A stretch of DNA of 64,000 nucleotides from Selenomonadaceae bacterium (GTDB lineage Bacteria; Bacillota; Negativicutes; Selenomonadales; Selenomonadaceae). The notes under the pieces are model-generated. The model had not been told where the DNA came from, searched no databases, and saw only the letters and a list, made by a program, of their open reading frames with translations. The stretch is taken from NCBI GenBank assembly GCA_030523645.1, contig JAUNIB010000011.1, positions 1 through 64,000 of the forward strand. Direction: 5' to 3'. Position 1 is the stretch's first letter; each line of letters opens with the position of its first letter. Positions 635 to 58,197 of this stretch are shown here, one piece after another. The translations under genes were made by a program, and so were the position numbers.

Positions 635-1909
635 TTAATCAACCAAAGAAATAAATTCATTAGCTAAAGCCTTATATTCACAATTTTTCAATACCCAATT
701 ATGACCACATTCTCCCATGATTTTCAGTTCTTCGTCATGTAATTCTGCCGCTTTCAAGATATTTTCATAAATTAACTCTGCATCATCAGAAGGACTTATC
801 CATCCGCAGCCTGCATCAACAACCTCTTTATTAGGCGATGACACTGCGTATAGAATAGGCTTTGATGCCATCATATAATCGTAAACTTTATTAAGACCTG
901 CACCATACCGCGTAATTGGCGACGCCTCAGCACCTACATACAGAACACTGCCATAGGAAAGGAGTGCTGGTACAGCTTTTTTGTTCACCGCAGGAAGAAA
1001 ATATACATTTGAACAAGCTTTTTCCTTTGCAAGGTTAATAAGTTTATCTTTCTCCACACCTTTGCCTGCCAAAACAAAAGCAATATCATTACGCCCACGA
1101 AGCTTTTCTGCTACCTCTATTAATAATTCCAATCGATTAGAAAGGGCATGTCCGCCTACATATAGAACAATAAATTCCCCCTGTAGTTTAGCAAATAATT
1201 TCTTATGCTCCTCAGGCAATGGCTCTGGTTGCTCCCAATCTTCCAACGCAACACCGTTAGGAATATGATGAAAACGGCTCATGTCAGAGAAACCAAATTC
1301 CTTAAAATATTCATATGCAAAAGGTAATACGCACACAACTTCATCTGCCTGCATTAAAGCAGACTTAAGCCCGGCCTCATTCAGCAAACAGAATGGATGC
1401 CATGGATTCATTCCGCCAATTGCAGTAAGCGTTAACGGCCAGAGGTCATGATTTTCGTGAATATATAGACAATGGGTTGGAGTTTTGTTGTTTTTTGCAG
1501 ATTTACTTGATTTTTTTAATTTATTACTAAAATCTCGTATCCGCTGGCACGGGTAGGTATCAAAGGTATATGTAGATGATCCAATAACCACATCGGGACA
1601 AAAATCTTCAGCTATTTCTTCTGCATGCCACAAAAGCTTTCCGCAAAACTGAAACATCGATATAGCCCTGGCTGCCCCGTTATGACTATAACTACAAGTT
1701 TTTACCCATTGATACTCAATACCATCAATATTTTGTATTTCAAAGTCCTTCCTCACTACAGGCTGGTTAACTCTAAGGTGTGAAAAACTAGCACCTATAA
1801 TTCTAACTCGGTGTCCTTCCTTCACCCACTCTCGAGCAAGGTAGTATGGTCTAAATTCCATTCCTAAGCTTAATGAGCCCGCATAATGATTAACATATAA
1901 AATATTCAT
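635..1909 (-). CDS. GT4-like glycosyltransferase (WbuB-like)
   Basis: A 424-residue GT-B glycosyltransferase that would add a sugar, probably an amino sugar, to a lipid-linked glycan at the cytoplasmic membrane. The N-terminus NILYVNHYAGS, then GMEFRPYYLAREW and HRVRIIGAS, is typical of WbuB-type enzymes. The C-terminal half has the nucleotide-sugar fold, with IVLYVGGHALSNRLELLIE, VLAGKGVEKDKL and the SPITRYGAGLNKVYDYMMAS region. The start ATG is preceded by GGAAG. Base use is AT-richer than in the flagellar genes, as is common for glycan loci. The acceptor and donor cannot be read from sequence. Confidence 0.82.
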   Translation of the reverse strand: MNILYVNHYAGSLSLGMEFRPYYLAREWVKEGHRVRIIGASFSHLRVNQPVVRKDFEIQNIDGIEYQWVKTCSYSHNGAARAISMFQFCGKLLWHAEEIAEDFCPDVVIGSSTYTFDTYPCQRIRDFSNKLKKSSKSAKNNKTPTHCLYIHENHDLWPLTLTAIGGMNPWHPFCLLNEAGLKSALMQADEVVCVLPFAYEYFKEFGFSDMSRFHHIPNGVALEDWEQPEPLPEEHKKLFAKLQGEFIVLYVGGHALSNRLELLIEVAEKLRGRNDIAFVLAGKGVEKDKLINLAKEKACSNVYFLPAVNKKAVPALLSYGSVLYVGAEASPITRYGAGLNKVYDYMMASKPILYAVSSPNKEVVDAGCGWISPSDDAELIYENILKAAELHDEELKIMGECGHNWVLKNCEYKALANEFISLVD

Positions 1910-1948
1910 AATTAACTACTTCCTTTAAATTTATATTATAGAAAATAG

Positions 1949-2632
1949 CTACACAAATCGTCCCAAAAGACCTCTTGCCTCCTCCTGCTTTACAGCATAT
2001 TCACCTTTTGTTATATCCCCTTTTCTCAATAACCAATCCCCATAATCCTCTGCAGTTTCCATGCCGTCAGTCGCAATATCCTCCTGCGCACTAACCTTGA
2101 AGATGGTACGGTAGATAATTCGCATATCTTCCCAAAAGCTTATATCTTTTATATATTGCAAATCATAAGCAAATTTTTCTTTCCATGTGATATTATTCCT
2201 GCCGCAAATCTGCGCAAGACCTGTAAGCCCGGGATACACGCTCTGCCTTTTCATTTCTTCCTCGGTAAAGAAAACCATGTCCCTTACCAGCTGAGGTCTG
2301 GGGCCGACTACGCTCATATCGCCTTTTAGGATATTTATCAGCTCCGGCAACTCATCAAGCGATGTAGCCCGCAGCTTTTTCCCGAATGGTGTCAGCCGGA
2401 CATCATCAGGTAGCAAATTCCCATCCGCGTCCCGTTCGTCTGTCATAGAACGGAATTTATACATCCTAAAAAGCTTACAGTCCTTACCCGGGCGAATTTG
2501 GGTAAATAACACCGGCGAGCCAAGGCGTGTTTTTACAAGATAGGCTATATAAAGCAGCACAGGAGAAAGAATTATCAAAGCCGCTCCGGAAGATACTATG
2601 TCGAATATTCTCTTAAAGCAGCTCTTATACAT
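1949..2632 (-). CDS. Initiating bacterial sugar transferase (phosphoglycosyl transferase)
   Basis: Transfers a sugar-1-phosphate from a UDP-sugar to undecaprenyl phosphate, the first step of lipid-linked glycan assembly. One N-terminal membrane segment (IFDIVSSGAALIILSPVLLYIAYLV) is followed by the conserved KFRSM, TSLDELPELINILKGDMSVVG, GPRP and YPGLTGLAQI motifs; the Asp-Glu pair in DELPE is the catalytic dyad of the family. I chose the ATG at 2632, which has GAGG nine bases upstream; a TTG at 2647 overlapping the previous stop is the alternative. At 227 residues it is the short, single-membrane-helix form. It follows the aminotransferase gene directly. Confidence 0.9.
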   Translation of the reverse strand: MYKSCFKRIFDIVSSGAALIILSPVLLYIAYLVKTRLGSPVLFTQIRPGKDCKLFRMYKFRSMTDERDADGNLLPDDVRLTPFGKKLRATSLDELPELINILKGDMSVVGPRPQLVRDMVFFTEEEMKRQSVYPGLTGLAQICGRNNITWKEKFAYDLQYIKDISFWEDMRIIYRTIFKVSAQEDIATDGMETAEDYGDWLLRKGDITKGEYAVKQEEARGLLGRFV

Positions 2633-2643
2633 ACAAATCAACC

Positions 2644-3927
2644 TCAACCAAAGCAGTTTCTGATTACATCAACTATTTTGTCCTGCTCCTTCTTAGTCAT
2701 CTTATTATCGCTAGGCAGGCACATTCCTCGCTGAAAGATATCTGCCCCGACATCTTCAACTCCACCGGCAATATATGCATTGGTTCTACATCTGCCTGTG
2801 CCGTCTACTGTTACAAATTCATGCATTCTGTACATAGGTTGCATGTGCATAGGCTTCCAGATTGGTCTACCTTCTGCGTTGATTCCAGCCAGTGCTTCCA
2901 GGATTTCCGTTGGGCAACTTTTGCCATGCTCAGGGATGTATGCTACATCCTGGTCGTCACGGACTTGTTTACACATTGCTTCTTCGTCGATGATCAATGC
3001 ACTGAGCCAGTAGTTGGGTTTGCATTTCTTTTCGTCGAAGGGGTTCATGTTTACGGGCAGGTCTTTTAGTCCTTCTCTGTATCTTTCGTAGATTGCTTTC
3101 TTTTGAGCGATGTGTTCTTCCAGATATGGGTATTGTCCACGGACTACTCCGGCGATGACGTTGCTCATGCGGTAGTTGTAGCCGACTTCTTCATGCTGGT
3201 ACCATGGTGCATTTTCTCTGGATTGGGTAGACCATTTACGAGCCTGGTTTGCATCTTCAAGGCTGTTGGTCAGCAGGCAGCCTCCAGAGCTTCCGGTGAT
3301 GATTTTGTTGCCGTTGTAGGAGATGGCTGCATAGTCTCCGAAGGAGCCGCATTGTTTTCCTTCCCAAGTAGCGCCCATTGCTTCGGCTGCGTCTTCTATT
3401 AAGAGTGCTCCATGTCTTTCGCAGATTTCTTTTATCCGCTTGATGTCTCCACTAAAGCCGTAGAGTTCTGCACAAACGACAAGCTTTACATCAGGGTAGA
3501 TTTCAAAAGCTTTCTCTAGTGCATCCGGATCCATGTTCCAGCTGTCATATTCTGTGTCAATGAATACCGGTATGCCACCTTCATATACCACAGGATTTAA
3601 TGTGGCATCGAAAGTCATATCAGAGCAGAATACTCTCTTTCCTTCCACTGCGCCATGACTGATGGATGGCTTCCCGTAGAGCTTTTCTCCGGCCAGCTTG
3701 ACACAAAGATGCAAGGCCGCCGTACAGCACGAGAGTGCTACTGCATATTTCACCCCAGCCTTTTCTGCTGCGATACTCTCTACTTCATTGATGTTGGCTC
3801 CAACAGTAGACATCCAGTTGGTTTCGTAGGCCTCTCTTATGTATTCCATCTCGAGCCCATGCATTGTAGGGCTGGCCAGCCATATTTTCTTTTCAAAGGG
3901 TTTTATGATTCCCTTGTCCCTGAACAT
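2644..3927 (-). CDS. DegT/DnrJ/EryC1/StrS family PLP aminotransferase
   Basis: Aminates a keto-sugar nucleotide using pyridoxal phosphate, supplying an amino sugar for the glycan made by the downstream genes. Visible are SCCTAALHL near residue 67, the PLP-contact motif IEDAAEA with Asp179, and the Schiff-base lysine in ISYNGNK (Lys208). The ATG at 3927 has AAGGGGA six bases upstream and is preferred over upstream GTG (3972) and ATG (3963) codons. Length 427 residues, slightly long for the family because of an insert near the C-terminus. It is the first gene of the left-end glycan operon, with a good promoter at 4030-4057. The particular sugar is unknown. Confidence 0.9.
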   Translation of the reverse strand: MFRDKGIIKPFEKKIWLASPTMHGLEMEYIREAYETNWMSTVGANINEVESIAAEKAGVKYAVALSCCTAALHLCVKLAGEKLYGKPSISHGAVEGKRVFCSDMTFDATLNPVVYEGGIPVFIDTEYDSWNMDPDALEKAFEIYPDVKLVVCAELYGFSGDIKRIKEICERHGALLIEDAAEAMGATWEGKQCGSFGDYAAISYNGNKIITGSSGGCLLTNSLEDANQARKWSTQSRENAPWYQHEEVGYNYRMSNVIAGVVRGQYPYLEEHIAQKKAIYERYREGLKDLPVNMNPFDEKKCKPNYWLSALIIDEEAMCKQVRDDQDVAYIPEHGKSCPTEILEALAGINAEGRPIWKPMHMQPMYRMHEFVTVDGTGRCRTNAYIAGGVEDVGADIFQRGMCLPSDNKMTKKEQDKIVDVIRNCFG

Positions 3928-4029
3928 GAAAAAGTCCCCTTGTTTATACCATTTTGGTATCATAATCTGCACACAAAAATCAATATAGCCACCCTATTTT
4001 AGTTATAGTATGCCATATAGTCATGTACA

Positions 4030-14830: not shown

Positions 14831-15679
14831 TTATTTTCCCTGTCCGTCCATTTGGCGAAGCAGCTCGATAGCGCCCTTCCCCAAATGCACCCGTCTTGCT
14901 ATATCTTCGGTGGCATAGCCTGCCGCCATAAGCCGTCGGGCTTCGTCTGTCGGCGACAGCTCGGACACCGCCGAGACTCTGACCGCCTTCGCGGCTGCCC
15001 GCTCAAGGGGCTTTATTGCCTCCACCCCTGACTCGGGATAGACCGGCATTTGCTCCTTCAGCTCTCTTGCCCTAGCGTAGTAGTCGATTCGTTTCGGCCT
15101 TTTTTCTTCTGCTTCCGATATCGGCTCAGACGGCTCCACGGCTCTATTCTGATTCGGCAGTGCGGCGATATCAAGCGCTGCCGCCTCTGTTTCCTCAATG
15201 GTACTGTCCAGCAGTCTGGAGAATGCGGTTGCCTCCTCTGCGTCAGCTTCGTCTGCTGCCAGCTGGGCTGCCATGTTCCCCGCTCCGTATGGTGATGCAG
15301 CAGCAGCCTGAGTTGCTGCAGTCTGCACAGCGGCAGGGTTAGTGGCCACTGTCTTTAGCTGCTCGGCTGTCATTACCGGCAGGATGCCGCTCTCCTGCGC
15401 CGTATGAATTTCCCGCCGCAGCTTGGTGAGTCTGCCGTCCAGCTTTGCCGATACTTCCTCAGCTTGAGAGATGAGGCTCTCCAGCCGGTCTATATGCTCC
15501 GCCAGACGATTTATTATCTCGTCGGCGGACTTTTCCATTTCATAGCGGATTTTTTCCGCTGTCACTTCTGCTGACTCCAGTCCCGTACTGTCTCCGAACA
15601 GAGCCACGCCCCGCCGCCGCAGAAATATATACACCAAGGCCCCTGCAATAATTATGAAGCCCAGTATTTCTACTACCAT
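14831..15679 (-). CDS. SwrB-like membrane protein (DUF6115 type)
   Basis: 282 residues: an N-terminal membrane helix (residues 4-20, ILGFIIIAGALVYIFL), a long coiled coil (about 35-95), a low-complexity Ala-rich stretch, and a C-terminal helix-turn-helix-like tail (ARRLMAAGYATEDIARRVHL, then GKGAIELL). This layout, and the place as last gene after sigD, matches Bacillus SwrB (YlxL), which promotes assembly of the flagellar export apparatus. Sequence likeness outside the tail is weak, so the function is inferred from architecture and position. Confidence 0.68.
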   Translation of the reverse strand: MVVEILGFIIIAGALVYIFLRRRGVALFGDSTGLESAEVTAEKIRYEMEKSADEIINRLAEHIDRLESLISQAEEVSAKLDGRLTKLRREIHTAQESGILPVMTAEQLKTVATNPAAVQTAATQAAAASPYGAGNMAAQLAADEADAEEATAFSRLLDSTIEETEAAALDIAALPNQNRAVEPSEPISEAEEKRPKRIDYYARARELKEQMPVYPESGVEAIKPLERAAAKAVRVSAVSELSPTDEARRLMAAGYATEDIARRVHLGKGAIELLRQMDGQGK

Positions 15680-15703
15680 AAAATCACCAAATTATATTTA
15701 TCG

Positions 15704-15752
15704 TCACCCCTCCGCCCCAGCTCCGCTCGGCCTTGTCCCCTGAACGGGGGAC
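15704..15752. repeat. Dispersed double-hairpin repeat (type B)
   Basis: CACCCCTCCGCCCC, a small hairpin, then TCCCC...GGGGGA. It sits between the small unknown gene and the SwrB-like gene within the operon. Confidence 0.6.
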
Positions 15753-15797
15753 TCTGGGGAGTGGGGGTACCTCTCAGCCCACCAATAAAGAAGCACC

Positions 15798-16169
15798 CTA
15801 TAGAGAAATATCTATCAGGGAGCCTCTTGCAATATCAAGATTTTTGCTCTGACGGCGCAGCTCCTCTACCTCAGCCAGTATCCGGGCTGCCTCGTCCTCT
15901 CCGTCCTCGCCTTCCCGACGATGACGTTTTCCGCCCTGTCCGCCGCCCTGTCGTCGTTCCCTCTCCGGGTCGTCCTTGATTTTTCCGTCTTCGGCTTCTT
16001 CATGCCGCCGGACGGTACGCTGATTCACCTCATCGGTTTCCCGCTGCTTAGCCAGCTGATTGTCCTGCTGAGCGTTTACCTGATGATGTATATTCTGTTG
16101 GAGCTGACTTACCTCGGTAGATTTCGGAACCATCAGTTGCAGGTTCATTGGGTTGAAATCCACGGCCAT
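15798..16169 (-). CDS. Small polar flagellar-operon protein of unknown function
   Basis: 123 residues, charged and Gln-rich, with no membrane helix. The N-terminus NPMNLQLMVPKSTEVSQLQQ resembles small proteins found after FapA-like genes in other Firmicute fla operons; the middle is Gln/Glu/Arg-rich with a RRQGGGQGGKRHRREG basic stretch; the end (EDEAARILAEVEELRRQSK) should be a helix. The ATG at 16169 has AAGGGAG upstream. I do not recognise a function. Codon use is like its neighbours. Confidence 0.65.
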   Translation of the reverse strand: MAVDFNPMNLQLMVPKSTEVSQLQQNIHHQVNAQQDNQLAKQRETDEVNQRTVRRHEEAEDGKIKDDPERERRQGGGQGGKRHRREGEDGEDEAARILAEVEELRRQSKNLDIARGSLIDISL

Positions 16170-16189
16170 TGTAATCACTCCCTTAATAT

Positions 16190-16328
16190 CTCGTGAATAA
16201 GCTCTGTTAGAAAACCGTTTATCTGCGCCGGTACTTAGCGACCTGCAAGCAAGCCTGCGTAGCAGGAGCTTAGTACCGCTGCGCAGATAACCGAGCGAGA
16301 GCGCGTTTTCGTCAGAGCTTATCACGAG
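16190..16328. repeat. Structured 139-bp dispersed element, copy 1
   Basis: The ends CTCGTGAATAAGCTCTG and CAGAGCTTATCACGAG are inverted copies of each other (one bulged base). Inside are nested complementary arms: ATCTGCG/CGCAGAT, CGGTAC/GTACCG and CCTGC/GCAGG. Bases 16201-16320 align without gaps to the reverse complement of 50401-50520, with about 24 mismatches in 120. A third, more distant copy is at 58035-58164. It lies between the FapA-like gene and the small unknown gene. Confidence 0.75.
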
Positions 16329-16352: not shown

Positions 16353-16401
16353 TCACCCCTCCGGTCTGCTTCGCGGACCACCTCCCCTATAGGGGAGGCT
16401 T
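16353..16401. repeat. Dispersed double-hairpin repeat (type B)
   Basis: CACCCCTCCGGTCTGCTTCG, CGGACCACC, then CTCCCCTATAGGGGAG. It is directly downstream of the FapA-like stop (16429). Confidence 0.75.
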
Positions 16402-50390: not shown

Positions 50391-50536
50391 AGCTGTGAAA
50401 AAATTCTGACTAAAACACTCTCTCGCTCATTTATCTGCGCAACAGTACTAAACTCTTGCTTCGTATGCTTACTTGCAGGTTGCCAATCACCGACGCAGAT
50501 AAACGGTTTTCCTACAGACATTTTTTCTTCGCAGCT
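50391..50536 (-). repeat. Structured dispersed element, copy 2
   Basis: Read on the minus strand it matches the plus strand of 16190-16328 without gaps over 120 bases (about 80 percent). Its ends AGCTGCGAAGAAAA... and ...CTGTGAAAAAATTC pair imperfectly, and differ from the ends of the other two copies. It lies between hslU and the fla/che promoter. Confidence 0.75.
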
Positions 50537-50547
50537 GTATAGAGGAA

Positions 50548-50587
50548 GGGCCTGTGAAAAAATGAATACTCATTTTTTCACAGGCCC
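50548..50587 (-). terminator. Long perfect hairpin after hslU
   Basis: An 18-bp perfect stem, GGGCCTGTGAAAAAATGA with its complement, and a 4-base loop, 24 bases past the hslU stop (50611). The stem has no long T-run after it, but its A/T-rich upper part resembles bidirectional terminators. It probably separates hslVU from the flagellar operon. Confidence 0.7.
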
Positions 50588-50610
50588 TCGTTTACTATGC
50601 TCCGCTGATT

Positions 50611-57965: not shown

Positions 57966-58034
57966 TAAAAATTTCTATATAATGAAGGAAAGTGTTGTGA
58001 ATTTGTTCCTTTCTTCCTTCGCGTATAGGGCCAA

Positions 58035-58164
58035 GGCATGACTGTCTGTAAAGAAACTGTTATGAACGCCGGTGCTTAGCTATTGCCGATTGAAATGACG
58101 GCAGAGCTTAGCACCGCTGCGTGAATAAATAAGCGCAAGCTGGTTTCTGTCAGACAGTCATGCC
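58035..58164. repeat. Structured dispersed element, copy 3
   Basis: Perfect 14-bp terminal inverted repeats GGCATGACTGTCTG, with inner arms CGGTGCTTAGC/GCTTAGCACCG and TGCCG/CGGCA. Compared with copy 1 (CGGTAC/GTACCG, CCTGC/GCAGG) both arms have changed together. It fills most of the gap between the tRNA terminator and the dprA promoter; nothing else is seen there. Confidence 0.7.
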
Positions 58165-58197
58165 TCGTTGTATACATTCACAATCCCACGAAGGCAC

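Follow-up and report, generated by a model that had tools for sequence, protein, structure and literature searches.

Three copies of a dispersed, structured element lie in the window, the whole 64,000-nucleotide stretch analysed here, which comes from a genome whose genus is most likely Schwartzia (Selenomonadaceae). A first-pass annotation had placed them at about 16190-16328 (plus strand), 50391-50536 (minus strand) and 58035-58164 (plus strand), and all three are found there. The copies and their parts are listed below, F being the folded strand.

16181..16189, plus strand: degenerate form of the Schwartzia 5′ box CCTTAATGTAA, here CCTTAATAT
16190..16328, plus strand: copy 1 of the structured element; F is the plus strand of the window
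16190..16206, plus strand: left arm of the outer stem P1 of copy 1, from fold and alignment
16210..16215, plus strand: left side of P2 of copy 1, GAAAAC, pairing with GTTTTC at 16305-16310
16216..16293, plus strand: P3 of copy 1, the long covarying arm with its apical hairpin
16234..16241, plus strand: apical-core strand CTTAGCGA, opposite GAGCTTAG at 16266-16273; conserved in three genera
16295..16302, plus strand: P4 of copy 1, GC-GAGA-GC, with a GNRA-type loop
16313..16328, plus strand: right arm of P1 of copy 1, from fold and alignment
50391..50536, minus strand: copy 2, partly degraded; its subfamily has a GCGAAG outer stem
50546..50588, minus strand: small hairpin 5′ of copy 2, GGGCCTGTGAAAAAATGAGTATTCATTTTTTCACAGGCCC, common to sister copies of the copy 2 subfamily
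58035..58164, plus strand: copy 3, from match, fold and covariance model

The common fold begins with a variable, self-complementary outer stem (P1), whose inner end on the F strand reads TCTG...CAGA. It continues through P2 (GAAAAC/GTTTTC) into a three-way junction bearing a side hairpin, P4, and a long arm, P3, with a conserved core at its apical hairpin. P4 is a small GNRA-type hairpin with the loop GAGA, GAAA, GCAA or GGAA, and the core is tandem GA-like. Relatives in other genera keep the fold together with the core CTTAGYGA..CAAG..GCGCAG..GAGCTTAG, and both this core and P4 are conserved across three genera. For copies 1 and 3, both strands give folds far more stable than those of dinucleotide shuffles (z -9.2 to -10.3), with energies of -76.4 kcal/mol for copy 1 (shuffles -41.4) and -69.9 kcal/mol for copy 3 (shuffles -35.0). 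The fold of copy 2 is weaker, at -41.1 kcal/mol (shuffles -33.8; z -2.2 and -2.9). The likeness of copies 1 and 2 reported earlier is borne out by 82% identity over 114 bases.

On its left side, the Schwartzia element carries the CCTTAATGTAA box and a small hairpin before it, both of which had escaped the first reading of the window. The box is essentially confined to elements or element remnants. The hairpin was rejected as a strict part of the element, since its sequence varies and similar hairpins occur alone; such hairpins adjoined an element in 3 of 12 and 9 of 15 cases. Several other repeats share this neighbourhood. A second repeat of ~112 bp (ACTAACTCACTTAATGAATCCGAGTG...) is nested at the P4 side of the junction in three copies (L044 1719-1830, L045 about 1958-2090 and L037 about 3756-3893, on contigs C9, C8 and C14 of the host genome G000), and fragments of it also lie beside other copies. 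A terminator-like dispersed repeat, ccggtctgcttcgcggaccacctcccctataggggagg, occupies 16354-16400 of the window and recurs beside copies in each of the two Schwartzia genomes. At L058 1348-1495, the element is abutted by yet another dispersed repeat, ~146 bp long, of which genomes of genus g21 have tens of copies that are about 80-100% identical.

The element measures 130-150 bp and reaches dozens of intergenic copies in some rumen-type bacteria. A BLAST search of the 2.3-Mb host genome, in which the window is contig 7, returned 47 matches to copy 1; with a covariance model made from 43 copies the number of matches was 79, including about 63 that are nearly full-length. A second Schwartzia genome (G001) holds at least 54, and a DNA pattern scan located the element in a Schwartzia metagenome-assembled genome. 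Relatives occur in 34 of 189 Selenomonadaceae genomes, spread over 6 of 30 genera, and every match in a class-wide sample of 300 genomes fell within Selenomonadaceae. Viral contigs, plasmids and phages were searched and gave no match, and carriage by phage or plasmid was rejected on this ground. The earlier statement that no known family matches also stands: Rfam (4227 families) yielded no relevant match even at E values up to 5, and none reached the gathering threshold. The repeat family is undescribed so far, and it is real, far beyond chance.

The paired base changes first quoted for the inner arms are real in the alignment, and the outer arms, said to differ among copies and still self-pair, form far stronger duplexes with their own partners than with swapped ones. 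The mean duplex energy is -23.8 kcal/mol for own pairs and -10.6 for arms swapped between copies in Schwartzia, and -30.4 and -12.5, respectively, in the sister genus g21. As many as 87 distinct left arms occur among 95 Schwartzia copies, and arms are shared within subfamilies only. The proposed genome-wide covariation check found two-sided changes at 41 of 52 pairs in the 43-copy alignment, against 28.3 in shuffles and 14-22 with partners slid; 94.6% of cells are paired in this alignment. Covariation above shuffles, as expected of a functional RNA family, is thus present, though it is confounded by template switching.

Comparison of orthologous loci bears directly on how these changes arise. 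Several g21 species hold copies in the same spacer, between flanks that are 80-97% identical. Of 11 such loci, 6 show an element that is inverted between species within colinear, intact flanks, and in all six it outranks every other compared copy of the other genome as a match. The G062 and G063 pair, for example, has 96-97% identity in the flanks and 92% in the element, which lies the other way round. These in-place inversions, also missed at first reading, are the hallmark of a template-switch hotspot between inverted repeats. The best match of window copy 3 in the second Schwartzia genome is likewise inverted (84%, rank 1 of 34). The corresponding spacer, at 58034-58166 of the window, holds two back-to-back copies in that genome (G001:C70 about 15510-15840, L148), the closer of which is inverted. 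Window copy 1 has an ortholog there at the same locus and in the same orientation, which has kept P1 and carries an interior from another subfamily. Several spacers hold different copies in the two Schwartzia species, suggesting that they are hot spots. Decay is seen at one locus in five species related to the g21 genome G021: two of these relatives retain a remnant with an internal deletion, and in three the element is missing. No clean empty site that would prove a recent insertion was found. At a locus that in G021 is occupied by the element, G076 instead has a gene pair (L283 1401-2916 and L282; G076:C111 about 1400-3970), one product of which, 530 amino acids long, has an NPPW methyltransferase-like motif; the pair is possibly a restriction-modification system.

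Same-locus copies in sister species show two-sided stem changes. Column pairs between orthologs comprise 34 changes from one Watson-Crick pair to another, 19 GT, 10 AC and 12 other mismatches, which is far from free drift. Template switching between the arms of an inverted repeat homogenises the arms and inverts the spacer with no need for selection (PMC8604942), and hairpin stems can arise and persist through it (PMC8794818). With inversion directly observed here, compensation at the level of the locus is no proof of selection. The ortholog-level changes were consequently dropped as clean proof of host selection once the in-place inversions had been found, since template switching explains arm matching and inversion alike. 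Matched base changes that resemble RNA evolution may thus be due in part to DNA copying errors. The original claim, which took the paired changes as a sign that a folded RNA or cruciform is under selection, survives in part: it gains from a strand asymmetry of wobble pairs and from unpaired motifs conserved in three genera, and it loses from the inversions and from a process that yields matched arms without selection.

The strand asymmetry is seen in several comparisons. In the 43-copy Schwartzia alignment, F has 64 GT pairs versus 20 AC pairs, and in the genera g21 and g3 the ratio is 57:11 in P1 and 114:26 inside. The g21/g3 alignment is fitted by a covariance model, which biases an alignment towards the model structure. 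Counted by column in it, the asymmetry is 21 versus 5 (p=0.002); the column-wise count in Schwartzia (p 0.15-0.34) and the ortholog-level count (19 versus 10, p=0.14) are not significant. The F fold is the more stable of the two strands in 167 of 179 copies, partly owing to the F loop motifs. Conserved unpaired motifs and strand asymmetry remain unexplained by template switching and are better evidence that one folded strand functions; they argue for constraint on one folded strand, DNA or RNA. This constrained form is probably a DNA substrate, and a transcribed RNA role for the element is possible. Of 55 copies in the host genome, 37 have F on the C-rich strand (p=0.014), as do 9 of 10 in genome G197.

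The gene context of the copies speaks to transcription. Copies sit near gene ends, the orientation of the surrounding genes is random, and the wobble asymmetry is independent of the direction of the neighbouring gene. Sigma-70-like promoters are not enriched in the flanks or interior of the copies, and an own promoter was disfavoured for this reason. Together, these three observations count against a read-through RNA and, weakly, against an RNA from an own promoter. A read-through 3′-UTR element, hinted at by several loci, was rejected on the random gene orientation and the context-independent wobble bias. An intrinsic terminator was also rejected: only 23-43% of Schwartzia and g21 copies, in either sense, and none of the g3 copies have a T-rich run after the stem.

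Signs of conventional transposition were sought as well. The g3 copies have sharp, asymmetric ends (AAGTGAG ... CGCCTTAGCA) between unrelated flanks. They show no target duplications, and direct repeats at the ends are at the level of swapped controls in both g3 and Schwartzia. No copy with an open reading frame, and no parent transposon, was seen among the matches. The check proposed earlier for an ordinary MITE found neither target duplication nor, among these matches, a transposase-bearing parent, and a DDE-type MITE was rejected for want of the duplication. No gene with a Y1 (HUH) transposase domain turned up in the g21 genomes G021, G063 and G066, which are 99-100% complete and carry 5-16 copies each. 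The sole Y1_Tnp gene of the host genome, which is RAYT-like, adjoins a different tandem repeat and has no element copy adjacent to it. These tandem repeats of ~180 bp, with GC-rich hairpins, lie immediately upstream of the gene and run into it (L047 500-1280; G000:C9 about 292570-293350); repeats and gene are a separate REP-type system in the host genome. A RAYT/Y1 transposase was rejected as the mobiliser, given this lone host gene beside another repeat and the failure to find any such gene in several copy-rich genomes. Integron attC boxes (GTTRRRY/RYYYAAC) were not apparent by eye at the hairpin ends in two alignments.

The explanation favoured here, with a probability of about 0.52, is that the family consists of non-autonomous, chromosomal dispersed palindromes whose folded F strand is a substrate, and whose arms are kept matched and whose copies are flipped by hairpin-based switching or recombination. 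In this model, the F single strand, most likely DNA exposed at replication, would serve as the substrate of a putative trans-acting enzyme that would have dispersed the element. Polymerase template switching or recombination between the arms would then keep the arms matched and invert copies in place, and could yield much of the compensatory change seen at individual loci. Counting against this model are the negative searches for Y1 genes, the want of a clean empty site, the non-significant wobble counts by column in Schwartzia and between orthologs, and the placing of F on the C-rich strand. A functional structured RNA transcribed from F, either a multi-copy regulatory RNA or a UTR element, would instead make the compensation a footprint of selection. 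The strong covariation, the wobble asymmetry towards one strand, the GNRA-type loop, the tandem GA-like core and the persistence of copies at orthologous loci with two-sided changes all fit such an RNA. It is nevertheless an unlikely reading, if the strongest of the rivals, given the random gene orientation, a wobble asymmetry indifferent to gene direction, the lack of promoter enrichment in flanks and interior and the lack of an Rfam relative. Furthermore, copies flip in place, and no consistent F RNA could therefore arise from a flanking promoter.

It is rather doubtful, and somewhat more so than an RNA role, that the element is a structured nucleic acid indifferent to orientation and served by a trans-acting partner of its own. 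Such a hairpin, mobile or regulatory, would form a new class, with its folded F strand recognised, as single-stranded DNA or RNA, via the conserved apical core. If this were true and in-place inversion were programmed, not accidental, the element would be a dispersed switch. A BIME-like architectural or protein-binding site in DNA, in which a hairpin or cruciform is the target of a nucleoid protein, of gyrase or of a structure-specific enzyme, accounts for indifference to orientation, as the benefit of binding would retain copies whichever way they lie. The siting near gene ends, the persistence at orthologous loci, the conserved core sequence and the occupation of the same spacers by different copies in the two Schwartzia species agree with it. 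However, a symmetric cruciform is not expected to give a strand asymmetry of wobble pairs, and the distribution is patchy, most Selenomonadaceae genera being without a match; such a site is considered improbable, marginally more so than a new hairpin class. An ordinary MITE, moved by a DDE transposase acting on terminal inverted repeats and constrained only as a palindrome, is very improbable. The element is short, dispersed and non-coding and has terminal inverted repeats, but these repeats differ from copy to copy, target duplications are no commoner than in swapped controls, the interior covaries and no parent transposon was seen.

The observations also matter beyond this family. Compensatory changes, the textbook evidence for functional RNA, are found here together with the in-place inversion that marks DNA template switching. 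Genome-wide screens in which covariation passes for proof of RNA function need a template-switch control, and the many orthologous copies in both orientations supply one. The finding also adds an undescribed structured dispersed element to a poorly studied bacterial family.

Among known systems, the family works most like REP, ERIC and bcr1-type elements, with membership of none of them established. The REP/BIME palindromes associated with RAYT (Y1 HUH) are likewise chromosomal, intergenic and dispersed, fold as single strands and leave no target duplication. In contrast, REPs are 20-40 nt hairpins with a tetranucleotide tag, whereas the present element spans 130-150 bp with a three-way junction and a variable outer stem; moreover, Y1 genes were not found in several copy-rich genomes and no copy lies beside the RAYT gene examined. 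The standard lagging-template model of IS200/IS605 predicts for F the strand other than the C-rich one. For an origin of the palindromes from IS200/IS605, the observations point both ways: the asymmetric ends and absence of duplication in g3 and the strand preference agree with it, and the replication-strand bias is opposite to the standard model. DDE-type MITEs differ in that the arms here are self-complementary and vary from copy to copy, with no target-site duplication above control.

The ERIC/IRU sequence of enterobacteria is an imperfect palindrome of ~127 bp dispersed between genes, similar in placement, symmetry and length to the Selenomonadaceae element and unrelated to it in sequence and host. 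ERIC/IRU is not known to have a GNRA side hairpin or an outer stem that varies and covaries between copies. The bcr1-bcr18 repeats are short, dispersed, intergenic, chromosomal and taxon-restricted and have a predicted conserved fold, all features shared by the present family. They are known from the Bacillus cereus group, where they are MITE-like and transcribed in UTRs (PMC3446304). Sequence, fold and host differ, and the Selenomonadaceae element is without detected target duplication and is inverted in place at orthologous loci. Such flipping is familiar from another setting: hairpin-associated minute inversions occur in chloroplast DNA. These, and the inversion of spacers by template switching (PMC8604942), resemble the present case in that the segment between two arms is inverted in place and the arms are kept matched. 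Unlike them, the Selenomonadaceae unit is a dispersed repeat family of bacterial chromosomes, about 100 bp or more in length, and roughly half of the compared orthologous loci have it flipped.
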